IMG/VR virus record: IMGVR_UViG_3300025806_000143
Location: 1 to 28,614 of that record
Length of the DNA stretch: 28,614 bases
Source: a virus
Direction: 5' to 3' (one strand)
Part shown: piece after piece, positions 8,730-28,597 of the stretch
Numbering within the stretch: the stretch's first letter is position 1
How the letters are laid out: every line of letters starts with the position of its first letter
Made by a program: the position numbers and the translations under genes
The notes under the pieces: generated by a model
Database searches by the model: none
Seen by the model: only the letters and a program-made list of their open reading frames with translations
What the model was told of the DNA's origin: nothing

Positions 8730-9558
8730 TTTTAATGAAGCAACATCAGGTAAAGAAAGTAAGACTATAGTAATTGATGCCTTGAACTTGGCCTTCCGTT
8801 GGAAGCATCAAGGCAGAACAGACTTTCGAGATGACTATGTACAAACTGTAAAATCCTTAGCCCAGTCATACAAATGTGGTAATATTATTATTACCGCAGA
8901 CTGGGGCTCTTCCAGCTATAGGAAGGGTATCTTACCAGAGTACAAGCAGAATCGAAAAGATAAGTACGAAACACAAACAGATGCAGAGAAGCAGGCATTT
9001 ATAGACTTCTTTGATGAATATGAAGGCACACTAGAACTATTGGCAGAGTCGTTTCCTGTTCTTCGTTATCAAGGTGTAGAGGCAGATGATCTTGCTGCCC
9101 ACCTGGTAAAGCGTAAGAAAGAGTACGGTTTAGAAGAGATTTGGCTAGTATCTAGTGACCGAGATTGGGACTTGTTAATTCAGGATGGCGTAAGTAGATT
9201 TTCTTATGTAACCCGTAAAGAAGTCACAATCAATAATTGGAGTGAGCATTACAATGTAACTCCTGAAGAGTACATCTCCTTTAAATGTTTGACTGGAGAT
9301 AAGGGCGATAACGTACCAGGCATTAACGGTATAGGCCCAAAACGCGCAGAGTCACTAATCAAAGATTATGGCGATGCAATGACCATCTATGACAACATAC
9401 CTTTAGACGGTAAGTATAAGTATATTCAAGAGCTAAATGCAAATGCAGAACTGCTCTTGACAAACTATGAGTTGATGGATTTAGTAACATATTGCGATGA
9501 CGCAATTGGTGCAGACAATGTGTCTGATATACAGCGGAGAATGACAAATGCAGATTGA
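8719..9558 (+). CDS. 5'-3' exonuclease / flap endonuclease (T4 RNase H-like)
   Basis: 279 residues from GTG 8719, with GGAG upstream. FEN-family acidic residues are in order: VIDALN (D20), ITADWG (D61), GVEADD (E121, D123, D124), SSDRDWD (D147, D149) and LTGDKGDN (D194, D197). These are followed by a helix-hairpin-helix VPGINGIGPKRAESL (199-213), the DNA-binding H3TH element. The SYRKGILPEYKQNR segment (66-79) is the conserved basic arch region. It would remove RNA primers and process flaps, supplying the activity absent from the polymerase. It overlaps the endonuclease upstream by 11 bases and nrdA downstream by 11 bases. Confidence 0.94.
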   Translation: MAFSFNEATSGKESKTIVIDALNLAFRWKHQGRTDFRDDYVQTVKSLAQSYKCGNIIITADWGSSSYRKGILPEYKQNRKDKYETQTDAEKQAFIDFFDEYEGTLELLAESFPVLRYQGVEADDLAAHLVKRKKEYGLEEIWLVSSDRDWDLLIQDGVSRFSYVTRKEVTINNWSEHYNVTPEEYISFKCLTGDKGDNVPGINGIGPKRAESLIKDYGDAMTIYDNIPLDGKYKYIQELNANAELLLTNYELMDLVTYCDDAIGADNVSDIQRRMTNAD

Positions 9559-11317
9559 TTATAAGAGAGACAACTATCTATCGGAGTTTAGTATTAAAAC
9601 TTTGGAAGATCGTTATTTAGTAGAAGGGGAAAAGTCTCCCCAGGATGCGTTTGCACGAGCAGCAAGAACCTTCGCTGACGATGAAGCACACGCACAGAGA
9701 TTGTATGACTACGCTAGTAAGCTGTGGTTCATGTTTAGTACCCCTGTTTTGAGCAATGGCGGCACTAGCCGTGGCATGCCTATTAGTTGCTTTCTAAACT
9801 ATGTTGAAGATAGCCGAGAAGGTATCACTGGTCACTATACTGAGAATGCGTTCTTGTCTAGTGTAGGAGGTGGTATTGGCGGTTGTTGGAATGATGTACG
9901 ATCAGTAGGAAGTAAAACCTCTGCGGGGTCAGAGTCAACTGGAGTAATTCCTTTCTTGAAAGTGGTTGATGCAGAAATGCTCGCTTTCTCACAAGGTGTA
10001 ACAAGACGAGGTAGTTATGCAGCATATTTGGAAATGTCTCACCCAGAGATTGAAGAGTTCTTGGACATTCGTAAGCCTACAGGCGGAGACGTTAATCGCA
10101 AGTCTACTAACTTGCATCATGCTGTCACTGTTTCTGACGAGTTTATGAAGCTGATCGAAGGAGCTACAAGAGAAGAAGGTTTCGATGATTCATGGGATTT
10201 AGTAGATCCACACAGTGGTGAAGTTACGAAGACTGTATCAGCTAAGACACTTTGGGTAAAGTTGATCCAAAATCGTGTAGAGACTGGCGAACCATACATT
10301 ATGTTTAAAGATACAGTTCAGGCCGCTTTACCACAATTTCAGAAAGATGCAGGGTTGCAGGTACATCACTCAAATCTTTGTTCTGAAATTACACTGGCTA
10401 CAGATGATCAGCGCACAGCAGTATGTTGTTTGTCAAGTGTAAATCTGGAAGAGTATGACGAGTGGAGCCAGAATGAGCAGTTCATTCCTGATCTAGTACG
10501 AATGTTAGACAATGTACTTGATCACTTTATCGCCAATGCCCCTAACGAGCTATACAGAGCGAAGTTAAGTGCAGAAAAAGAAAGAAGTATTGGCCTGGGT
10601 GCTATGGGTTTCCACGCTTATCTTCAGAGACACAACATTCCGTTTGAGAGCGTGCTTGCAAAAGGTGCAAACAACAGAATGTTTACAAGAATTAAATCGG
10701 AGGCAGTACGTGCAACAAGACAACTTGCAACAGAAAGAGGGGAGTGCCCCGATGGTAAAGGCTACGGCGTACGTAATGCTCACTTGCTTGCCGTTGCTCC
10801 TAATGCTAGTAGTAGTATTATATGTGGTAATACAAGTCCTAGCATTGAGCCTTACCGGGCTAATGCTTTTACGCAGAAAACTAAAAGCGGTAGTAGCCTT
10901 CTTAAAAACGAGTATCTCCAACACGCATTACAAGAGATTGACATGGATACGGACGAAGTTTGGAAAAGCGTTATCACAAATGGTGGATCGGTTCAACAGT
11001 TAGACTTCTTAGATGATTACACTAAGGATGTATTTAAGACAGCCGTAGAGATTGATCAGAAGTGGGTTATTGAGTTTGCAGGAGATCGACAGAAGCACAT
11101 TTGCCAAAGTCAGTCACTAAACGTATTCTTCCCTGCGAATGTTTCAAAGCAGGAACTGCACGCGATACACATGGCGGCATGGAAGCAGAAAGTAAAAACT
11201 CTATATTATCTACGAAGTGAAGCGATGAAGAGAGCCGAGACAGTATCAGATGAAGCACTACGAAAGTATATCTTCGATACTATTGATGAAAATGATTGTT
11301 TAGCGTGTGAGGGTTAA
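9548..11317 (+). CDS. nrdA: Ribonucleotide reductase class I, catalytic alpha subunit
   Basis: 589 residues. It reduces ribonucleoside diphosphates to deoxyribonucleotides for phage DNA synthesis. Active-site motif N276-L-C278-S-E280 matches the E. coli N437/C439/E441 set. The redox pair is C81 (PISCF) with a Cys at 293/294 (AVCCL). The radical-relay tyrosines occur as TLYYLR near residue 550, and the C-terminal swinging tail is CLACEG (C584, C587), which is re-reduced by thioredoxin. It starts directly at the barrel region and lacks the N-terminal ATP-cone of E. coli NrdA (761 residues), so dATP feedback through that domain should be absent. ATG 9548 has GGAG at 8 bases. No intein interrupts the conserved blocks. 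Thioredoxin and nrdB follow immediately. Confidence 0.97.
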   Translation: MQIDYKRDNYLSEFSIKTLEDRYLVEGEKSPQDAFARAARTFADDEAHAQRLYDYASKLWFMFSTPVLSNGGTSRGMPISCFLNYVEDSREGITGHYTENAFLSSVGGGIGGCWNDVRSVGSKTSAGSESTGVIPFLKVVDAEMLAFSQGVTRRGSYAAYLEMSHPEIEEFLDIRKPTGGDVNRKSTNLHHAVTVSDEFMKLIEGATREEGFDDSWDLVDPHSGEVTKTVSAKTLWVKLIQNRVETGEPYIMFKDTVQAALPQFQKDAGLQVHHSNLCSEITLATDDQRTAVCCLSSVNLEEYDEWSQNEQFIPDLVRMLDNVLDHFIANAPNELYRAKLSAEKERSIGLGAMGFHAYLQRHNIPFESVLAKGANNRMFTRIKSEAVRATRQLATERGECPDGKGYGVRNAHLLAVAPNASSSIICGNTSPSIEPYRANAFTQKTKSGSSLLKNEYLQHALQEIDMDTDEVWKSVITNGGSVQQLDFLDDYTKDVFKTAVEIDQKWVIEFAGDRQKHICQSQSLNVFFPANVSKQELHAIHMAAWKQKVKTLYYLRSEAMKRAETVSDEALRKYIFDTIDENDCLACEG

Positions 11318-11318
11318 G

Positions 11319-11564
11319 ATGAGATTACTTAAATTTAGTGCAGAATGGTGTCAACCTTGTAAGATGTTGGCAAAAACGTTGGAGGGGGTTAATCTCCCCT
11401 ATACTATCTCAAGTATTGATATTGATGATAGCCCAAACTTAGCAGCGGACTACAAAGTTCGTGGAGTACCTACAATGATACTTGTAGATGATAATGATAA
11501 AGAAGTAGGCCGCTTAGTCGGAGTTAAGACTAAAGCCCAGATAGAGGAGTTTATAAATGAGTAA
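11319..11564 (+). CDS. Thioredoxin-like reductant for ribonucleotide reductase
   Basis: 81 residues. The ATG at 11319 is preferred to the GTG at 11307 because GAGG sits 6 bases upstream and the nrdA stop ends one base before it. The thioredoxin fold is shown by SAEWCQPCK (C11, C14; Gln replaces the usual Gly of WCGPC) and the cis-proline motif GVPTM (P51). It is shorter than bacterial thioredoxin (about 108) and appears to lack the N-terminal strand and helix. Its place between nrdA and nrdB, overlapping nrdB by 8 bases, strongly suggests it recycles the CLAC tail of NrdA. Whether host thioredoxin reductase or glutathione recharges it cannot be told from sequence. Confidence 0.93.
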   Translation: MRLLKFSAEWCQPCKMLAKTLEGVNLPYTISSIDIDDSPNLAADYKVRGVPTMILVDDNDKEVGRLVGVKTKAQIEEFINE

Positions 11565-12519
11565 TTTGCTAGAAGAAAGAGAATATTACAAGCCGTTCAA
11601 TTACCCTTGGGCATTTGAACATTACAAGTCCCAGCAACATATGCACTGGTTGCCGGACGAAGTGAATCTGGCAGATGATCTAAAAGACTTCCGTGAGAAT
11701 CTTAGTGAAGGCAATAAAATGCTTCTCGCTAACATCTTCCGATTCTTTACACAGGCAGACGTAGATGTATGTTGTGGTTACGCAACACACTACCTGCCAA
11801 CATTTAAGCAGCCTGAAGTACGCATGATGTTGTCTGCGTTTGCAGCGATGGAAGCAGTACACCAGGAAGCATATTCGTTGTTGCTTGAAACTCTTGGTTT
11901 TGGCGACGATGAATACCAGAAGTTCATGGAACACAAAGCTATGATGGATAAGCATGAGCATCTTAGCAACTTCGGTATGGACTCTAAGATGGATATTGCA
12001 AAAACAATGGCTATCTACTCAGGTTTTACCGAAGGAGTACAGTTGTTTAGTAGTTTTGCTATTCTATTGAACTTCCCTCGTCACAACTTGATGAAAGGTA
12101 TGGGACAGATTGTTACTTGGTCTGTTCGAGATGAAAGTCTCCATGTTGAAGGAATGTCACAATTGTTCCGTACATTCATTCAAGAGAACCCAGAATTGTG
12201 GAACGATGATCTGAAGTATGAGATCTATTGTGCCGCAGAGCGATCAGTAGAGCTAGAAGATGCGTTTATTGACTTATGTTTTGAAGGTGCAGATGTCCCA
12301 GACCTCACACCAGAAGACGTTAAGTTATACATTCGTTATATTGCAGATCGCAGACTACTAGGACTAGGCTTGAAAAAGATCTTTGGAAGCGAGAAGAATC
12401 CCTTGGATTGGCTAGACTATATGCTAAATGGCGTTGAACACGCTAACTTTTTTGAAAACAGAGCCACCGAGTATTCTAAAGCGAGTACTACAGGTAATTG
12501 GCAAGACATATTTAAATAG
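11557..12519 (+). CDS. nrdB: Ribonucleotide reductase class I, radical-generating beta subunit
   Basis: 320 residues with the ferritin-like R2 fold. Metal ligands are all present with E. coli spacing: D68, E99, H102, E159, E193 and H196 (equivalent to D84, E115, H118, E204, E238, H241). Y106 matches the radical tyrosine Y122, so this is a canonical tyrosyl-radical, oxygen-dependent subunit rather than a Phe-substituted class Ic type. The C-terminus (NWQDIFK) would dock on NrdA. The start ATG 11557 follows GAGGAG. It is the last large gene of the rightward operon. Manganese versus iron usage cannot be deduced; no nrdI flavodoxin gene is adjacent, which argues against class Ib. Confidence 0.97.
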   Translation: MSNLLEEREYYKPFNYPWAFEHYKSQQHMHWLPDEVNLADDLKDFRENLSEGNKMLLANIFRFFTQADVDVCCGYATHYLPTFKQPEVRMMLSAFAAMEAVHQEAYSLLLETLGFGDDEYQKFMEHKAMMDKHEHLSNFGMDSKMDIAKTMAIYSGFTEGVQLFSSFAILLNFPRHNLMKGMGQIVTWSVRDESLHVEGMSQLFRTFIQENPELWNDDLKYEIYCAAERSVELEDAFIDLCFEGADVPDLTPEDVKLYIRYIADRRLLGLGLKKIFGSEKNPLDWLDYMLNGVEHANFFENRATEYSKASTTGNWQDIFK

Positions 12520-16256: not shown

Positions 16257-16442
16257 CTAGAGCGGATCTAGCCATGCGTATTCGTTGTTTCCGTCGGATA
16301 AGAAAAAGTCTGTAATACCTACCTCTCCTTCCTTATCTAGACGGACTGCTGCGATAGAACTGTTGGCAGCAGGTGCGCCGCCAACAGTTACTGTTTCATG
16401 AATGATCTTTTCACCATTCTTTGTGTATCCTACTTGTATCAT
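16257..16442 (-). CDS. Small hypothetical tail-operon protein
   Basis: 61 residues, beginning MIQVGYTKNGEKIIHETV and ending DGNNEYAWLDPL. The ATG overlaps the stop of the giant hub gene (ATGA), so it is translationally coupled to it. It has no membrane segment and no recognised domain, and the composition suggests a small beta-rich protein. It is the last gene before the promoter gap; no hairpin terminator separates it from the fibre genes. A role in tail tip assembly is inferred from position only. Confidence 0.7.
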   Translation of the reverse strand: MIQVGYTKNGEKIIHETVTVGGAPAANSSIAAVRLDKEGEVGITDFFLSDGNNEYAWLDPL

Positions 16443-19400
16443 ACAATATGCTCCATTGTTCCTGATATTCTCTGTGCAACAGCAGTAACTCCTGTCGAGT
16501 GTGTTGCACCGTTAAATGCTTTCAACCTAAACTCGGTGGCGCTAGTGGTAGAGCCTAGAGTGGCCTTTACATTATAGCTAGCGAGTTTTGTAGGTTGCAC
16601 TGTAGTTTGCACATAAGCTTGTAGACCTCCATCAAATACGCTAGATGCGGCAATAAAAGTACCTGTCGAGGCAAACGAATCTGGACTGAAATATATAGCC
16701 TCTCCCGAAGCAACTAAATTACCACTGGTGTTAGCAGGCTGTGTGAATAGAATATAAGTCTGATTATCTCCCAGATCATACCAAGCTCCTCGAATAGACC
16801 CCTGCCAGCTACTACCATTTACGGTGTCCGATATACTACCTGCCTGCACTTTTGCTAGTACATTACCTGCGATTTTTATTCGTTCTACTAGAGTAGCCTC
16901 TACGGTGCCATTTGCGGCCGCACTTCCAAGAGTAATTACACCGGTGGAGGCATCTACTGCTCCTTTTGACTTTCTCTCTAAAGTGAAGTTTGTGAAAACA
17001 TTCTGAGCAACATTAGTAGTAGTCACCTTAAAACGCACAGCTATATCTACTTTTGACTTCTTGGCAACACCACCTGTTGGGGCAGGCAAAGAAAACTCGT
17101 GCAAGATTGTAGTTGCTTGTTGCGTACCTGTTATGCTCTTATTTAACAGGTCTATATCGAGAGTATATTCTTCGTTTACGTCGCCAGATAGCTTGCCTAC
17201 AGTGATAGTATTCGCTGCAAAGTTATCTGCGGCTAGAGTACCAAACACACCCGCAGCTGCAGTTACAGTAGTTAGAGCGGCCCAAGCAGAAGCAGAAGAA
17301 CCTCTTTCGTAGGCAGCCGCACCCGTAGGGCTAGCCTGTGTGCCAGTATAAAAACTAACCACATCTCCTTCGATAGCTCCTAAAGGTAGAGGAGCATTTG
17401 ACCCGTTAAACAGTGCTTCAATTTCTGCCGAGCTATCTGCATCGGTCAAAGCACTAACACCAAACACAAAGTTACCAGGAGTTCTAGCTGATTTTGATAC
17501 TGCTGCTAAACCTTCTCCGTCTACATTATAAGGTGCAGGTAACGAATGTACAGTCTTTAGAGCCGATTTGCCCGATTTGGTATTTACAGAAGCCTGCATA
17601 GTTTTAGCCGTAGCCCAGTAGTAGTTAGTGGTATTTGCTGAAACTCCTTGGGTGTCTGTATACTCGTTACCCGACACTTCTGCGATAAGTTTAGTAGTGC
17701 TCGCATAGAGGCTATTTGAAGAACCTCTATGAATCTCAACTTTTTGTGTTATCGGGTCCCAGGTGGAGGGAAGTGCCCAACTAAGTTTAGTGCCTCCCAT
17801 AACAGCTGTTTGTGTAACAGAGGTAACAGGATCCGGAGTAGTCAACACATTTACTTTAGAAGGTCCCTTTTCTGAAAAGGCAGTAGCTTTCGTAGGGGAC
17901 ACTACATAAGCATCATCGTCATGTTCCTGTGCAACTACCCCAACTAGTGAGTTCTCTTTGAAGGTTAAGCTTGATATTCGGAACAGCTTAGAAACGAAAC
18001 CAAATCGAGGGTATGTAATTTCAATAGTGCTGCCCGCTGTTAGCAGAAGTCCTTTAGGCCCCATCTCAAAGCTAATAGATAAAGAGCTTCTGCTCTCATC
18101 TAGTATCTGCTTGATATTGAATCTAGCATTGTAGTAGTTTGTTATACCAGGTGCAGAATAGTTACCCTTCTTAGGAACAGACCTATCTTGTTTCAAGTAG
18201 TCCGAGTTCATGAAGTTAATCTGTCGAGCTTCAAACTGTAGTTGGGGATCTACTATATTTGCACTGATAGAGTTAAATATGCCTTTCTGTCCTCCATCTT
18301 TTAGTGCGATAGCTCCAATTATATCATCTTCTGTTATCTTCTCCGCGGCTGTTGCAGTGCCGTGCTTAGACTTAATATCTAAGCTATACTTACCGTTGCC
18401 ATATCTGAGTATGCCGTTGAACTGTGATAACATTTTATTAACATTATCAAATACGGGATTAGCCGTATCTATTCTCTGGTTCATCTGATGCCTAGTAACA
18501 TTTCTTTGAACGTCTGTAGGCCAGCCTACGTACTTCCAATATCTAACATCTGATGCCTCGTATAAACTATACCCAGAATCATTCCAAGTACCGTCAGACC
18601 TATAGGCTTTAACTACAGGGTTACCCTTGTCTCCCAGCAATGCAGCAGTTATGGTTCCGCTAACCTTGCCAGCGTTTAGACTCAAAGTGTCCTGGCCCGC
18701 TACGTCTCTATATAGAGTTATGTTATTTACATTGGTAATCTCACCACTAGATACGAAACAGGTATCGTCTACTCGTTCTACTGGTATAACTTCAAACGAG
18801 TCATCCGCCTGCCGGAATCTTCTGTGTAGGTGTGGGTCTCCGCTTGTACCTAAAGATACTACTTTAAAGGCGGAGCCTCCAGGGATAGCACCCGCTTTTG
18901 CTATAAACTCCCTACCGGTGGTCTTAGAGCCACTCTGAATCACCGCGGTAGCGTCAGCATCGGCACCGTTGGTTATAACATAGTAAGCCTTTCCAGCTAT
19001 TAACGTATCGCCTGCACCGCGTATCGCGCTTGTAGGCGTTAGGACGCCAAGACCAGCAAATGAAGTAGTACTGCTACTAGTAGTAAAGACGACACCTCTT
19101 TCAAGGGCCGAAGCGCCTAGGGTTCTAAAGTCAAATCCGCCGTAGTTGGGATCATAAACATGAAGAATGGTATAGCTAGTACTTGGCTTTATAGTTGTGA
19201 TAGGGGCCGTGTCTATACCGGCAGGCTCTCGCCAAAAGGCAGTTTTCTCACCTAAATAGTTGTTCTCGTAGTTAAACACAGTACCTACATTATTGTTGGC
19301 TGCACCCATGCAGGTGAGGTCTGTCACCCCGGAAGTAACAATAGTTACTTCGAGACCTTCCGAAACAGTGTTGCCTGGGCCTGTATGAAAGGATGCGCCT

Positions 19401-22400
19401 GATCTAATAAACGCTCTGCCCTCTCCTTCGAGACCCGTAGTTCCTCCAGCAGTATATACCGTACCTGCCGGTATATCAAACTCGCCGTTAGAGTATATAA
19501 GTTGATTCTTGGCAATACTTGTAAAGTTATTAACACGTTTAACTATAGAACCATATACGTCTTCAAACTCCGTTTCCCACAAAGCTTGGCCTGCTACAGT
19601 GACGGTGGCATCTGCTACTGATTTTACTTTACCTCTAAAAAGAAGGTCTCCAGAAACATAACCTGTAGCATTAGTGTCTGGATAAGTGTATATATGCCCT
19701 ACAGTAGGTTTAGTTGTTCCACCAACGCCGATAGCGGCTACTTTAATAGTACTTCTCTCGTCACACTTTAAGGCAGAAGCTTTGAAACTATCTAAGTCTA
19801 TTTCTGTGTCTTTATCTAATCCTGCTCCGTATCTTGTGTTGGTAAGATAGTCTAGCATGTGCATTGCAGGGTTAAGAGTTTGTCTCGTATCTGATATAGT
19901 ATTGTCAGCCGCTGCCGGTACAATTTTATAAGTCCAAGTAATGTTAGGTGTTCCAGGCAAAGCCTTATTTATATCCCAAGGTGCGTCTACTGTGATAACT
20001 TTATTTGTGGAATCATAAGCCTTTACTACGCGGTCTTGCGTACTAAAGGAGGAGTACCCATATCGAGTATGGGCGGCAGTTACGGATACTACATCTCCTG
20101 CAACAGGTGTACCAGAGAAAGAAGCTCCCATATATAAACCATCTGTCATATATACATGGCTATAGATTGAATATATAGGTCTATTACTAGCAACGTTATC
20201 TATGACTGTATCGTTTAGTCTTATGCCTTCTATATGGCTCGCATAATAATTTCTCCAATCACCCGGGTTGCCGATAAAAAACGCTAGTCGGGCAGTCGTG
20301 GTTATTTTGTTAAAACCAGTCTGAATCCCTGTTAGCTTTAGTTTTTTACCGTAAGCCGTGCCCGCCGCATTTGTTACTGAATCACTGTGGTCAATTTGAG
20401 CATATAGAGGACCTCCAACTGTGCCCGTAAGAGTGCCTGGTGCATTATGATTTATAAGGTTCCATGTAGCAGTAAAGTTTATAGTGTCGCCTGAGCCAAT
20501 ATCCTCGGCTATATTTTTATCTAAAACGATACTTACACCATCAACAATCGACGCGATTTTACTATTTGAAGTAATGTTGCTCGCATCAGTAGCACTTGTA
20601 ACTACCATTCCAACCAATAAGCCGCTAGTCTTTGCTAGAGGGATAGTTTTATTGTTAGATCCGGCAGTAGCGGCAGCATCTGTCGCTATTGCAATGGTTC
20701 TCTCCATATAAATGTCGCCACCTACAGGAGTACCCGAATCTACAAGAGTTAGTGTCTCATCAAAAGTAAATACAGCTGCCTCTTGGAAGTTAGATACTTT
20801 TATGCCTGTACTAAACTTATCGGAGATCGTAACAGTCTGGCTATAATTAGTACCAAGTGATTTTACAGCTACCTCATCGCCTGCATTGAAAGCAGAAAAA
20901 AGCGTTAAAGTATTATTTTTTGCAGTCTTAAATAGATCATCATAATGGTGGCACTCTACGCTTCTTCCCTGTACGATATAAGTTACGTCAGGTATTGTAG
21001 TTTCGCCTTCAGAAATTGTGTACATCGCAGTAGTGTAGGCCGTGTCTAAAAGCTTGTGCTCCGCAGTCCAATAGTCATCAGGCGTAGGATAATATTGCTG
21101 CAAGTGGAAGAGCCCCTGATTGGCTACGCCATACAGCATAGGGTCTGCCGATTGGTTTTTTGTTCCTGTGTGTAACTTGAAACGAGCTTTAATAGGTAGA
21201 TCTAATGTGAACGTTTCATTATCTGTCCAGCCAACGCTAGACTGAACACTAGTGAATAGATAGTCTAGCATATCATCATCCGCAGGCTCTGTCTCAGTGT
21301 TGATAATATTAGTACTAGAGAATAGCTCTTCTCCAGCTTCTGTCCCACTTAGTTGGGAGGACCAATCCCATAGAGAGACTGAGTTTGCTGCAGCGGCAGG
21401 CTTAAACCCTTGTAAGCAATCTCCTTGATCTGCTCTACCATAGCATATAGCATCTACGCCCTCTGGTACGGTGAAGCCCTGCGGCTCTCGTCTATTCTGA
21501 TCCTGCTCATCTGTACAGATAAGAGGAGTATCATCTATATGAAGATCAAGGATGCCACCAATTGGACCTTCGCATATCGCATTCGCAGTATAAACAAGAG
21601 CAGAGCTATCTCTATGGGTATCTGCAAATATGGGTATGCTCTTTGTTTTCTGTACGCCATAAATAACTGGTAAGTACTTTGCGGAAAGATTAAAGGCCAG
21701 GTCTACCTGTCTTTGTACTGGTTCCTGATATTCAATATTTGCCCCTGTTCCCATGCCAAAAAAACTTTGGTCTTCTCGGTAGTAGCTACGAGTTTCATAT
21801 GTAGTATATGTTGAGGTAACATTAACAGCGGTTTCTGCGTGAGCAAAACCTTTATCATAGACATATTCAGGTCTTCCTGCAGAAGCAGGGTCAGGCGCGC
21901 CTCTAGGGTCTAAAGCTCTATGTGCGTCATCGCTTGTAAATCTACCAGAGACTCTTTGAAAGTCTCCCCAATGGCTGGTAAGGCTCCATATTATTTTTGA
22001 GTCTTTACTTACGTTCTCTTTAATATCCCCTTTTGAAATCAGACCTTTAAATAGTAAGTAAGGGGCTCCAACAATAACACCCGTCTCTGGGTTTATGTGG
22101 GCTTTCCATATAGATACGCGTCGATTAAGATACCCGTTATAGACAGTACCCCGCCCTCTGACAAGAGCAGTTAATTCCTCAGATTGAATCTCTGTAGTAT
22201 AGCTAACACTGGAGGCATTAACTAAAGCATCCGTAGATATAGGTGTATAGTGTACCGTATTAGAGGCAGCAAACCTTTCTATAATAAAAGATTTACCCTC
22301 ATTTCCACCATTTGAGTTATCTACTAAAAATACTTTATCGCCTTCTTGGTAGTATTCTGACAGGTCTATATTTGAAACAAAAGTTTTTGCACTTGCAACT

Positions 22401-22750
22401 ACTGTGGCAGTTACGGCTACAGAGGTGCTTAAAGTACTACTATCTAAGGTGAGACTCATGCCTCCGATCTTGGCTCTAATATCTTCTTTTACGTCTCCGA
22501 CTTTTAATACTTTATTAGCTATATAAGTTTGTGTCCCCGCTGCATCTCCTGCTGCGGTATATACACCGTCATCAAAGGCTATATTATATGCTGCATCTGT
22601 TAGATACGTATACTCATGGGGGAGCCCTGACTCTTTTTCGTCTCCGTCCCTAAGAATAGGTCTCTCGAATTTTATTAAGTGTGCGTAATTGAACGGGTCA
22701 TTGTTTAATAGTGCCGTTCTTAAATCTGCATGTATACTGCGCTCTGCCAT
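16439..22750 (-). CDS. Giant gpJ-like tail hub/tip protein
   Basis: 2103 residues, about twice lambda gpJ (1132). The N-terminal 290 residues look like a hub/gpL-type domain: LVRGRGTVYNGYLNRRVSIW, LFKGLISKGDIKEN, SLTSHWGDFQRVSGR. gpJ-like landmarks follow: LPVIYGVQK and AICEGPIGGILDLHIDD near 365-410, MLDYLTNTRYGAGLD near 960, FNGILRYGNGKYSLDIKS near 1450, ITEDDIIGAIALKDGG near 1475, and a receptor-proximal FN3-like domain at about 1635-1715. The last 380 residues are Ala/Thr-rich beta modules. Residues about 1130-1290 hold three degenerate copies of a fibre-type module. The protein would close the distal tail tube, contact the tape measure and carry receptor-binding or fibre-attachment parts. 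The start overlaps the previous stop (TAATG) with GAGGAGG upstream. No separate gpK- or gpI-like genes are present. Confidence 0.85.
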   Translation of the reverse strand: MAERSIHADLRTALLNNDPFNYAHLIKFERPILRDGDEKESGLPHEYTYLTDAAYNIAFDDGVYTAAGDAAGTQTYIANKVLKVGDVKEDIRAKIGGMSLTLDSSTLSTSVAVTATVVASAKTFVSNIDLSEYYQEGDKVFLVDNSNGGNEGKSFIIERFAASNTVHYTPISTDALVNASSVSYTTEIQSEELTALVRGRGTVYNGYLNRRVSIWKAHINPETGVIVGAPYLLFKGLISKGDIKENVSKDSKIIWSLTSHWGDFQRVSGRFTSDDAHRALDPRGAPDPASAGRPEYVYDKGFAHAETAVNVTSTYTTYETRSYYREDQSFFGMGTGANIEYQEPVQRQVDLAFNLSAKYLPVIYGVQKTKSIPIFADTHRDSSALVYTANAICEGPIGGILDLHIDDTPLICTDEQDQNRREPQGFTVPEGVDAICYGRADQGDCLQGFKPAAAANSVSLWDWSSQLSGTEAGEELFSSTNIINTETEPADDDMLDYLFTSVQSSVGWTDNETFTLDLPIKARFKLHTGTKNQSADPMLYGVANQGLFHLQQYYPTPDDYWTAEHKLLDTAYTTAMYTISEGETTIPDVTYIVQGRSVECHHYDDLFKTAKNNTLTLFSAFNAGDEVAVKSLGTNYSQTVTISDKFSTGIKVSNFQEAAVFTFDETLTLVDSGTPVGGDIYMERTIAIATDAAATAGSNNKTIPLAKTSGLLVGMVVTSATDASNITSNSKIASIVDGVSIVLDKNIAEDIGSGDTINFTATWNLINHNAPGTLTGTVGGPLYAQIDHSDSVTNAAGTAYGKKLKLTGIQTGFNKITTTARLAFFIGNPGDWRNYYASHIEGIRLNDTVIDNVASNRPIYSIYSHVYMTDGLYMGASFSGTPVAGDVVSVTAAHTRYGYSSFSTQDRVVKAYDSTNKVITVDAPWDINKALPGTPNITWTYKIVPAAADNTISDTRQTLNPAMHMLDYLTNTRYGAGLDKDTEIDLDSFKASALKCDERSTIKVAAIGVGGTTKPTVGHIYTYPDTNATGYVSGDLLFRGKVKSVADATVTVAGQALWETEFEDVYGSIVKRVNNFTSIAKNQLIYSNGEFDIPAGTVYTAGGTTGLEGEGRAFIRSGASFHTGPGNTVSEGLEVTIVTSGVTDLTCMGAANNNVGTVFNYENNYLGEKTAFWREPAGIDTAPITTIKPSTSYTILHVYDPNYGGFDFRTLGASALERGVVFTTSSSTTSFAGLGVLTPTSAIRGAGDTLIAGKAYYVITNGADADATAVIQSGSKTTGREFIAKAGAIPGGSAFKVVSLGTSGDPHLHRRFRQADDSFEVIPVERVDDTCFVSSGEITNVNNITLYRDVAGQDTLSLNAGKVSGTITAALLGDKGNPVVKAYRSDGTWNDSGYSLYEASDVRYWKYVGWPTDVQRNVTRHQMNQRIDTANPVFDNVNKMLSQFNGILRYGNGKYSLDIKSKHGTATAAEKITEDDIIGAIALKDGGQKGIFNSISANIVDPQLQFEARQINFMNSDYLKQDRSVPKKGNYSAPGITNYYNARFNIKQILDESRSSLSISFEMGPKGLLLTAGSTIEITYPRFGFVSKLFRISSLTFKENSLVGVVAQEHDDDAYVVSPTKATAFSEKGPSKVNVLTTPDPVTSVTQTAVMGGTKLSWALPSTWDPITQKVEIHRGSSNSLYASTTKLIAEVSGNEYTDTQGVSANTTNYYWATAKTMQASVNTKSGKSALKTVHSLPAPYNVDGEGLAAVSKSARTPGNFVFGVSALTDADSSAEIEALFNGSNAPLPLGAIEGDVVSFYTGTQASPTGAAAYERGSSASAWAALTTVTAAAGVFGTLAADNFAANTITVGKLSGDVNEEYTLDIDLLNKSITGTQQATTILHEFSLPAPTGGVAKKSKVDIAVRFKVTTTNVAQNVFTNFTLERKSKGAVDASTGVITLGSAAANGTVEATLVERIKIAGNVLAKVQAGSISDTVNGSSWQGSIRGAWYDLGDNQTYILFTQPANTSGNLVASGEAIYFSPDSFASTGTFIAASSVFDGGLQAYVQTTVQPTKLASYNVKATLGSTTSATEFRLKAFNGATHSTGVTAVAQRISGTMEHIV

Positions 22751-26500: not shown

Positions 26501-27817
26501 TCTCCGAGCAATGTGAGAAGTGGATCGTGCTCTAGAACCTGCGGAACTTATCTGCCCTCTTCGACCTTCTGTAGCGATTAACTGCTCGGTAGCAATTCTC
26601 AATTCTCTTATCTGGTTAAGCTCTATCTGTCTTTGTGCCCGTGTGGCATCGTTTCCTGTGTTAAGTCGTGCTGCTCTCTGAGACTCTGATCTTTGCAAAG
26701 TCACTAAGTGTGCTCTATACTCAGCCAGACTTAGAGAGCCTGAACGAAACCCAGCTTCAACCGCACGAAGACTTTGTGGTACTGTTCTGAAAGCAGTATT
26801 TACTTGTGCAACTGCATTTACATACTGTGTTGATATTGCTCTACCTGCTCTACTGGCCTCAGCAGCTGCAACAGACGCTATATCTCTATTACGTGCAGAG
26901 AGATCTCCAAGAGCGGGTAATATTTTCTTTGTAACAGAGCTTGCAAGTAGCATAAGCCCTCCGACCATTGCAGTAGGAAAGCTTGATAAAAACTTAACAA
27001 GAGGTATAGCGCCTATATTTAGGAAGGTAGTAAGATCTTTTACCATATCTCTAAATTGAGCGGATAACTGAGCAAAAGGCTCTGCATCTACGTTCTCAAA
27101 AATCATGGAGAATTTTTTCTCACCTTGTTCAAGAGTAGCATTTAGGAATGCTTGCTGCTTTTGAAAACGGGATAAATCACCTACCACAACACCAAGACTA
27201 TCGGCATACTTTTGTGAGGCTTCATCAAGACGTACCATGATACCCAATTCATCAAGAATTTCAGGTTCAAGTTTTGCAGTACCTTTTACAAGACGAGTAA
27301 GTGCATCTCCCATGTCTCTTCCGAGAGCGAGAGAAGCACCTTTTGCGACTCTTGTTAGACCTTCTAATTGACTAGTACTGAATCCCGCACTTGTTGCAAG
27401 CGCGGTTGCTTCCATTGCCTCTTTCAGAGTAATAGCGCCATCAGTTATATTTTGAAGCTCTCGGGCTACAAACGGAAGATTTTGACCTGCGGCATTACCT
27501 ACGGCGATCAAACCCTGTTCGAGTTGATCAAGAGCAGAAGCTCTCTGCAACGCACCAAAAGCGGCAGTAAGAGCAAATGTGTGTGCCATTAAAGTAGCAT
27601 AGGCGGCAACAAGACCACCCGCACCATTTGCTTGAGCAGCAAAAGCTCTAGTAGTGTTTCCTTGCATATTGGAGACACCACGAGTAGATCTGTTCAAGCG
27701 AGTGTTTGCTTCGGAGACTCTATCTACGCCCGCAGCTGCTTGGGTTGCCTGATTTGCTATTTGCTGAAGACTTCCATCTTCAAGGACTCTGAACCGCATG
27801 GTTACTGTATTGGCCAC
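23501..27817 (-). CDS. Tape measure protein
   Basis: 1438 residues. It sets tail length and is probably ejected with the DNA. Long helical, Ala/Gln/Lys-rich stretches alternate with hydrophobic segments: GGLVAAYATLMAHTFAL near 67-83, FPTAMVGGLMLLASSV near 280-295, ALLNIVPIIGQVLFFGSLLL near 500-520 and PAAVPGIAIMAAMGVAQLAA near 1255-1275. The C-terminus has the signature common in tape measures: AAGGPAGFVVGEQGPELFVP, followed by GSIVPAG. A coiled coil with heptads occupies much of 780-1090. No lysozyme or peptidase domain is apparent. The start is GTG 27817, overlapping the upstream stop as TAGTG with only a weak AAGAGA ribosome site. From its length the tail would be roughly 200 nm by the usual 0.15 nm per residue rule, which is an estimate. 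Confidence 0.93.
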   Translation of the reverse strand: MANTVTMRFRVLEDGSLQQIANQATQAAAGVDRVSEANTRLNRSTRGVSNMQGNTTRAFAAQANGAGGLVAAYATLMAHTFALTAAFGALQRASALDQLEQGLIAVGNAAGQNLPFVARELQNITDGAITLKEAMEATALATSAGFSTSQLEGLTRVAKGASLALGRDMGDALTRLVKGTAKLEPEILDELGIMVRLDEASQKYADSLGVVVGDLSRFQKQQAFLNATLEQGEKKFSMIFENVDAEPFAQLSAQFRDMVKDLTTFLNIGAIPLVKFLSSFPTAMVGGLMLLASSVTKKILPALGDLSARNRDIASVAAAEASRAGRAISTQYVNAVAQVNTAFRTVPQSLRAVEAGFRSGSLSLAEYRAHLVTLQRSESQRAARLNTGNDATRAQRQIELNQIRELRIATEQLIATEGRRGQISSAGSRARSTSHIARRQSVAQDMIGQSGPVEGFRVAARAATGHMATVGRTAGPLNTLRVGFQAAGASAALFGSALLNIVPIIGQVLFFGSLLLPLFGNMFKKSGLAKATDEVTASFSSFAKISAQLADHLRSVKDAEEAFASTLAVRVGITQQITAGVAKMIAAKDEDDLEAEADALTLLAQRQTSLAKAQATAAQQMRDNGVLTRDARVDLSRSTQFAASAEKTYNSIVADNNSVSKESIRSLLAEAKAKAKASGMTEALSIEIAKYNTLVESGVLSGDGNISSAALTAALEGVSKPLAALKQETAGVTELTTKMANETTKATNEQAGKYGEVFDSVNGLRTGLINLADAAEKAGETEIRPVPQDTIAQVERLKLALKLDGEALAGSYVDQLKVIQEKIAANNVLIATSAIESKKLTDTAKEFGQISSTNASAKEEELGFAKQALEATLAGAQANYDNLAALTDGKAVTNDMLKVQAEIDRITRQIGATANDSLIVDIAKVEQANRLGALNQKILASEKEINAAKLKGIADQAIIDTTASKRAGKKQTPAQDAAARFINEERAIKQEMINSEFTMKVNSINMEYDLLTAKLALEKAIAGRLGEDTKIYDTLGKTMGAAKDSATIAATENLLASNKGLEREGVVLGDKALTEKQGIEVSTASRAFGDNTGMVESGQILGDSMETIKAGGSEGISALNEAMSPMLDSLAQLSPEGEMMSSIATGAFNMMEGFTSAFEGIEDGGSKAQAGVQMAQAALQGLSSIMAATNKQKIAGFDAEIAAEKRKDGQSAQSVAKLKALEAKKEAFQRKAFEKDKKMKMAMVVSSTALAIMKESEKGFPAAVPGIAIMAAMGVAQLAAIAGTSYQGGGSGSSAPAAPSKVSVGERQNTVDFAKSRGGRGELGYMRGEQGIGNANSFQPAFTGYKNRAAGGPAGFVVGEQGPELFVPEVPGSIVPAGETAAGGTPTNVNFTIQAVDAAGVEDLLMAQRSNIIGMIREAANDQGQLFLEGIDADGLGV

Positions 27818-28137
27818 TATTTTTTTCTCTTTAGCTTATCGTGCTCTCGCTTCATTTGCTCTTGCGAGGTTTGAACAGCTCTTGAGTCTAACCAGGTTAG
27901 AAGCTCTAGGAAGAATTCTTTATCTTCAACATTATATATTTCTAAATAGTAGGAAAGATTAGTATAGTCTTTTCCTATATATCCTATGTCGGGGAGTAGT
28001 CTGTCTCCGAGCATATTAAAAGTGTTCATTGCATTTACTGCTGTTTCTGGAAAGTCTTGCCAGTCGGGAGGTATCTCACTCTCAACTGGCTCCTTTCCTA
28101 ACTGATCGCACATCTCAAGATAACGCTCCCGAGTCAT
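27817..28137 (-). CDS. Tail assembly chaperone, T frame (gpT-like)
   Basis: 106 residues from ATG 28137, but the frame is open upstream to 28212, into the 3' end of the G frame. The extra codons encode a plausible helix (EELTKRLDRYFKNANGK) that continues into MTRERYLEMCDQLGKEP. The ATG has no good Shine-Dalgarno (only GGCAAG adjacent), so expression mainly as a G-T fusion by frameshifting is likely, as in lambda gpGT. The protein has a conserved-looking core (IPPDWQDFP, MLGDRLLPDIGYIGKDYTNL) and a basic coiled C-terminus ending KLKRKK. It lies directly before the tape measure, which it would chaperone during tail assembly. The stop is preceded by an A7 run. Confidence 0.82.
   Translation of the reverse strand: MTRERYLEMCDQLGKEPVESEIPPDWQDFPETAVNAMNTFNMLGDRLLPDIGYIGKDYTNLSYYLEIYNVEDKEFFLELLTWLDSRAVQTSQEQMKREHDKLKRKK
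27820..27826 (-). other. A-AAA-AAA heptamer before the T-frame stop, candidate slippery site
   Basis: Seven consecutive As on the - strand read AGA-AAA-AAA-TAG in the T frame, which fits the X-XXY-YYZ slippery pattern. A -1 slip reads AAA-AAA-ATA-GTG-GCC, which is exactly the tape measure frame. The run could also cause transcriptional slippage. Whether it is used is unknown; termination and restart at TAGTG is the simpler alternative. Confidence 0.4.
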
Positions 28138-28165
28138 CTTGCCATTTGCGTTCTTAAAGTATCTA

Positions 28166-28212
28166 TCAAGCCTCTTTGTCAGTTCCTCTCTTTGGTCCTG
28201 AACGAAAGTTAT
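28166..28212 (-). promoter_or_regulatory. Programmed frameshift window between chaperone frames G and T
   Basis: The T frame is open only from 28212 (after a TAG at 28215-28213), and the G frame stops with TGA at 28168-28166, so any shift must happen within this 47-base interval. T is in the +1 (equivalently -2) frame of G. Two plausible sites are AAG-AGA at 28192-28187, where the AGA codon can re-pair perfectly two bases back, and TTT-C at 28207-28204, where a Phe tRNA can move +1 from TTT to TTC. The fused product would be about 260 residues. Confidence 0.6.
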
Positions 28213-28597
28213 CTAGATCGAAGACTACCTCGTTGAGCCAAGTGTCAAATTCAGTTGATGAACTTACCAAGGTCTCTGCATTGTCTGCTGTAAAAGGCAG
28301 CTCTTGCTCTGGGTCTACACTACCATAGTCTACTAATAGTAGGGTTTCTAGGTGAGCCATGCTCAGGCCTTTCCAGTCTTTAAGTACTGCTGCGCTAAAC
28401 TCAGTTACGAACTTATCTTCGTCAAGGGTTTCTACTACTGCGCGTGTCTTACGATCAAACTTCTGTCCTGTACAACGCTTACGTAAACCGTTTAACTCTT
28501 TACGTGAAAGATTTGCTACTTCTACGGAAAATCCGCTCAAGCCTGGGAAATCTACCCATACGGCTTTGGTGTCGACCATTAACTTCTTTAGGTCCAT
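28166..28597 (-). CDS. Tail assembly chaperone, G frame (gpG-like)
   Basis: 143 residues. The pattern matches the family of phage tail assembly chaperones: GFSVEVANLSRKELNGLRKR near 22-41, a DEDKFVTEF helix, the hallmark VLKDWKGL (about 70-77), then LPFTADNAETLV near 100-111 (the 'pft..n...l' box) and a C-terminal helix EFDTWLNEVVFDLDNF. It would bind the tape measure and recruit tail tube subunits in the cytoplasm, with a minority made as a G-T fusion. ATG 28597 follows AGGAG at 8 bases, a strong site in contrast to the T frame. The major tail tube gene is expected just beyond the right edge of the window. Confidence 0.85.
   Translation of the reverse strand: MDLKKLMVDTKAVWVDFPGLSGFSVEVANLSRKELNGLRKRCTGQKFDRKTRAVVETLDEDKFVTEFSAAVLKDWKGLSMAHLETLLLVDYGSVDPEQELPFTADNAETLVSSSTEFDTWLNEVVFDLDNFRSGPKRGTDKEA

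Follow-up and report, generated by a model that had tools for sequence, protein, structure and literature searches.

Results

Organization of the tail chaperone locus

The window analysed here is the whole stretch of 28,614 nucleotides of the IMG/VR virus record IMGVR_UViG_3300025806_000143. The minus strand of this 28.6-kb record carries the siphophage tail genes G, T, tape measure, distal tail protein and J-like protein, and the features that concern us are listed in Table 1. As in chaperone pairs of the lambda kind, the tape measure gene is immediately preceded by two chaperone-homologous ORFs, and T is in another frame that is open across the end of G and contains a conserved slip site. 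The tape measure protein is the presumed partner of G and GT. The PHROG matches of both ORFs and the neighbouring tape measure gene bear out the tail chaperone identity that an earlier note had proposed from the letters of this DNA. PHROG 313 covers both the G and the T regions, possibly due to fused entries included in it. In a viral library, T has further matches among the tape measure chaperones of other phages. Among solved structures, no convincing match was found by sequence, nor by fold for G.

Table 1. Features of the chaperone locus and its surroundings in the window
Feature	Position	Strand	Details
G ORF, tail assembly chaperone	28166..28597	-	143 aa, standard-translation product; PHROG 313, E 1.6e-16; upstream SD AGGAG
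T reading frame, open stretch	27820..28212	-	+1 relative to G; PHROG 3914 (tail assembly chaperone), E 1.1e-20
Shift interval (T frame open, G stop still ahead)	28166..28212	-	from stop positions; exactly 47 bases
Candidate slip site TTT_CGT	28202..28207	-	invariant TTT_CGN in 203 +1 loci
GAGGTAGTCTT block	28221..28231	-	synonymous-position conservation, marine clade only; ~13-24 nt 5' of the slip TTT
Tape measure protein, 1438 aa	23501..27817	-	PHROG 3779, E 4.6e-85; GTG start
2103-aa protein	16439..22750	-	PHROG 31 (central tail fibre J) match over part of its length only
Likely ribonucleotide reductase genes	9548..12519	+	589-aa large-subunit candidate (named from sequence), 85-aa thioredoxin-like ORF, small subunit (Pfam Ribonuc_red_sm)

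On the minus strand, G ends at a TGA (28168-28166) with a TAG directly after it, and the T frame is bounded by a TAG at 28215-28213 before it and a TAG at 27819-27817 at its end. Each T codon begins one base 3' of a G codon, so the minus-strand codon positions give the same +1/-2 register that had been noted earlier, and the positions of the stops agree that the T frame is open through the G stop and that the overlap is confined to 47 bases. The predicted GT fusion of 259 aa joins 28597-28205 to 28203-27820, with its C-terminal half in the T frame. The sequence TAGTG at 27815-27819 (minus strand) was also observed, in which the T stop overlaps the GTG start of the tape measure gene; it suggests that the tape measure gene is translationally coupled to T or GT.

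The DNA polymerase of the record is 45% identical to those of T5-like phages, and its G and T are 30-40% identical to theirs. In the G/T tree, the record belongs to a branch separate from the T5-like phages, which we call the marine clade, a label taken from the look of the nearest relatives, all of them metagenomic viral contigs. A match to Arthrobacter phage Hestia lay elsewhere than in the tail genes and was discarded as fortuitous.

Conservation of TTT_CGN in the overlap

Eighty relatives of G were taken from viral contigs, 78 of which also hold T. All 78 are in the +1/-2 register, with a single in-frame TTT_CGN per overlap. When the present record is included, the A-site codon of the 79 sequences is CGT in 69, CGC in nine and CGA in one, and the codon preceding TTT is AAC or AAT, with TAC once. 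No further in-frame TTT_CGN occurs ahead of the site in the 79 G genes. Further relatives were gathered with G of T5 and G of Vibrio phage D252 as queries, and an in-frame TTT_CGN lies within the overlap in 203 of 203 loci of +1 register (some of them duplicates; 75 clusters at <88% identity), including T5 and other Demerecviridae. The conservation of one candidate site in an alignment of homologues had been named beforehand among the checks that could refute the frameshift reading, and TTT_CGN, in frame inside the +1 overlap, proved to be invariant.

The overlap of T5 reads CTA GAT ACT TTT CGT AGC TCA AAA GCG TAA, with a 23-nt interval for the shift. Besides T5, 17 Demerecviridae or T5-like isolates agree on the site and the register, namely Kamaji, My1, PSTCR5, Brizo, Ceto, VAC35, Eps7, KEY, KIT04, D252, poul124, ZJUN2, phiR2-01, KKP3711, Eos, PM135 and AhSzq-1, the last with a noisy record. 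In this record of Aeromonas phage AhSzq-1 (MG676224), many genes are broken and contain in-frame stops, probably because of sequencing errors; T is interrupted, and TTT_CGA is still there.

The conservation is seen at the level of codons. On a tree of the 75 clusters, TTT is present at the site in 75/75 with no parsimony step, compared with 6-19 steps for each of six other conserved Phe columns. The Arg codon at the site is CGN in all 75 clusters and never AGR; elsewhere in these genes AGR makes up more than half of the Arg codons, and the other Arg columns show a mixture of AGR and CGN. Viral contigs were also scanned at the DNA level with a codon-blind pattern that admits every synonymous codon for EVVFDL(D/E)NFR. 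Among the matches listed (76 distinct contexts), TTT was found in 76/76 and CGY (CGT or CGC) in 76/76.

Position and direction of the proposed shift

The comparison of stops among relatives narrows the possible position of the shift. The earliest G stop lies 6 nt after the start of TTT, in My1 (codons TCC TTT CGT TAA) and in Vibrio D252, and the latest opening of the T frame lies 5 nt before TTT, in T5, the present record and others. Taken together, the G stops of My1 and D252 and the T5-type openings leave no more than a few bases around TTT for the shift. In this stretch, TTT moving to TTC is the only full re-pairing, and no re-pairing at -2 is found. The invariance of TTT by itself could also arise if Phe were needed in both frames and the shift occurred upstream; this is discounted because the preceding codon varies and T-frame stops are present just before it. 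From these codon comparisons, we consider that the shift most likely goes in the +1 direction, at TTT_CGT in 28207-28202 (minus strand). This is the TTT-CGT candidate of the earlier note, which had proposed TTT moving to TTC with the junction NF-VQD. Its tentative '+1 or -2' can be narrowed to +1.

The other candidate was a -2 shift at AAG_AGA_GGA with the junction GPKR-EEL, in which AGA would re-pair two bases back, as in phage Mu, where -2 shifting in the tail chaperone is reported (PMC3498833). AGA re-pairs exactly at -2 inside the 47-base overlap of the present locus. The AGAGA sequence differs among close relatives, however, and the G genes of My1, D252 and other phages stop ahead of any AGA-type site; around the invariant TTT_CGN, no P-site codon re-pairs at -2. 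An annotated fusion also bears on this point. A single T5-like record was found to annotate a fusion, that of Salmonella phage Shivani (NC_028754.1, 93207-94038), which gives a chaperone CDS fused from two pieces and a protein entry of 277 aa. A -2 join gives 277 aa and a +1 join 276 aa, so the annotated length counts against +1; the Shivani paper makes no mention of a fused chaperone product. On balance, a -2 shift at AGA is very unlikely. A transcriptional slippage or an assembly error at the overlap has nothing in its favour beyond the frame change itself. The runs of T at the site are just 3-4 bases long, and some 200 assemblies, as well as isolates, share both the register and the site, which leaves this explanation a practically negligible probability.

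A sister clade with the -1 register

Among relatives with both genes, the register of G and T is either +1 (203 loci) or -1 (one sister clade, 26 loci), and in no case are the two genes in the same frame; neither was a naturally in-frame fused G/T relative found. As every relative with two genes is +1 or -1 and never in the same frame, the register is more than chance. The sister lineage (L180, L211-L235) has homologous G and T, with T in the -1 register and TTT_CG absent. All 26 loci carry a canonical -1 heptamer in phase at the homologous codon, G_GGA_AAC in 15 and A_AAT_TTT in 11. The canonical -1 arrangement, a -1 register together with an X_XXY_YYZ heptamer, is thus found in this lineage and is lacking at the present locus.

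The fused proteins of the +1 and -1 sets align through the junction at the same residue. In a 40-row tree drawn with no outgroup, the two sets lie on two sides of one branch with support of 100/96. Since the homologous genes of the sister clade carry -1 heptamers, the direction of the shift would have changed during evolution, and on this tree a single change would be enough for the +1/-1 split.

Translation of T and the frame of constraint

The pairing with the anti-Shine-Dalgarno sequence at the G start has a mean energy of -7.8, and 89% of the starts are strong. At the T Met, the mean is -1.1 with 3% strong, against a background of -2.2 with 10%. The ATG of T at 28137 has no ribosome-binding site, and this pairing, weaker than background, is in line with what had been read from the sequence of the record alone. 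The third-position variability follows the G-frame pattern up to the site and the T-frame pattern after it, including the 22 codons before the T Met.

These data bear on the explanation that T has a start of its own, either ATG 28137 or an upstream TTG in some relatives, and that no fusion is made. In most records, T is annotated as a gene by itself, the Met at T residue 24 is conserved in most marine relatives, and an SD-like GAGG precedes a T-frame TTG in 23/63 of them. In 40/63, however, a T-frame stop lies between the GAGG and the site and no start follows this stop, and the T Met is replaced in relative L071 and in the T of Vibrio Thalassavirus. The pairing at this Met is weaker than background, and the constraint on the T frame sets in at the slip site, 22 codons ahead of it. 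Nor would an own start account for a T that is invariably +1 or -1, has the slip site that fits, and is in no case in frame 0. We therefore give hardly any weight to independent translation of T.

The production of T as part of a GT fusion is consistent with separate AlphaFold2 models of G and of the T frame, the latter starting at the slip site. The T-frame model has a helix at residues 2-21, ahead of the Met, with a pLDDT of ~87. In the G model, the last helix (115-132) ends at the slip site, with a disordered tail beyond it. The two models suggest that an unbroken helix may run across the GT junction.

Regarding stimulatory elements, an internal Shine-Dalgarno sequence like that of prfB is absent just upstream of TTT, and no downstream stimulatory RNA structure was found; the only hairpin is an upstream one of 9 pairs without covariation. 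Rfam and tRNA scans gave no match. As there is neither a downstream structure nor a Shine-Dalgarno sequence just upstream of TTT, the shift rate could be low. In the marine clade, the GAGGTAGTCTTT block lies upstream of the site; it is SD-like, about 20 nt from the P-site codon and partly complementary to the slip site. At the homologous place in L001-L080, GAG is found in 63/63, and GTA and GTC are strongly preferred; in the codon-blind scan, GAG is present in 72/76 among the matches listed. The T5-like isolates are without this block. It may tune the shift rate, but its spacing is, to our knowledge, unlike that of known Shine-Dalgarno stimulators.

Discussion

In this study, we found an invariant TTT_CGN in the G/T overlap of an IMG/VR virus and of its relatives with the +1 register. 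The sequence comparisons suggest that this T5-like siphophage very likely makes two products for tail assembly, the chaperones G and GT, with a common start and a programmed +1 frameshift. In the proposed mechanism, the P-site tRNA-Phe on UUU (28207-28205) would slide to UUC (28206-28204) while CGU is in the A site, and decoding would pick up at GUU (28203-28201) to give ...DLDNF-VQDQ.... Most ribosomes would end at the UGA and yield G, and a minority would yield GT. If lambda is a guide, the tape measure protein would be coated by G and GT, and the tail tube protein would be recruited through the T part.

We also consider it likely that UUU_CGN is the family-wide +1 signal of the T5-type chaperones, T5 included, that the direction flipped between -1 (G_GGA_AAC or A_AAU_UUU) and +1 at the same codon in one lineage, and that bacterial viruses and influenza converged on this shift sequence. 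Chaperone frameshifting in the -1, -2 and +1 directions is already known; the family-wide UUU_CGN and the direction switch are what we could not find published, as no paper in the open-licence literature was found to name either of them.

If these proposals hold, they have several consequences. In the model phage T5, which is reported to be without a signal, a candidate signal has been located, in a form that is missed by searches for -1 heptamers. The site would be an example, conserved in nature, of +1 shifting in bacteria that involves no stop codon and no visible stimulators. The +1 and -1 clades would offer a natural experiment, in which homologous genes shift in opposite directions at the same codon. 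If true throughout, a wrong T start is annotated in the majority of deposited phages that have this chaperone, of which there are roughly 900.

Tail chaperone frameshifting is described as widespread, and as -1, -2 or +1 depending on the phage (PMC5009743). In lambda, as here, two ORFs precede the tape measure gene, gpG and gpGT are made from one start, and the presumed role is the same (PMC5009743). Lambda shifts in the -1 direction, whereas the present locus would shift +1 by a single-tRNA slip at UUU_CGN. Tail chaperones outside the -1 register are also reported in Mu (-2) and in the haloarchaeal virus HSTV-2 (very likely +1) (PMC3498833, PMC5009743). The SEA-PHAGES set used for PRFect contains forward shifts (PMC10885494). 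Taken together, the recoded genes in question are mostly tail chaperones. These cases concern other phages and sites, and in the passages cited none is described as UUU_CGN or T5-like. In SPP1 and Listeria phage Tsh, a siphophage tail gene likewise has a +1 shift, shown there by protein sequencing; unlike here, the extended protein is the tail tube protein and not a chaperone (cited in PMC3498833).

T5 itself is among the closest known systems. T5.143/T5.142 and the tape measure chaperones of Demerecviridae have homologous G and T, the same register and the same site. The report on phage Sugarland describes its tape measure chaperone, like that of T5, as having no predicted frameshift signal (PMC6256483), unlike the site call made here.

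Outside phages, UUU_CGU is the proven +1 site of influenza PA-X (PMC3498833), and UUU_CGN has been proposed for plant amalgaviruses (PMC5052127). In bacteria, UUU_Ynn is prone to +1 shifting, as noted in PMC5009743, where the PA-X site is also described as having no evident stimulatory signal, as is the case here. CGU is rare in human genes and frequent in E. coli (table in PMC3498833). PA-X and the amalgaviruses are RNA viruses with eukaryotic ribosomes and unrelated proteins, and the resemblance to our locus is one of mechanism, not of kinship. The shift sequence and the direction are nevertheless the same, and TCC_TTT_CGT of My1 is identical to the UCC_UUU_CGU of influenza (PMC3498833).
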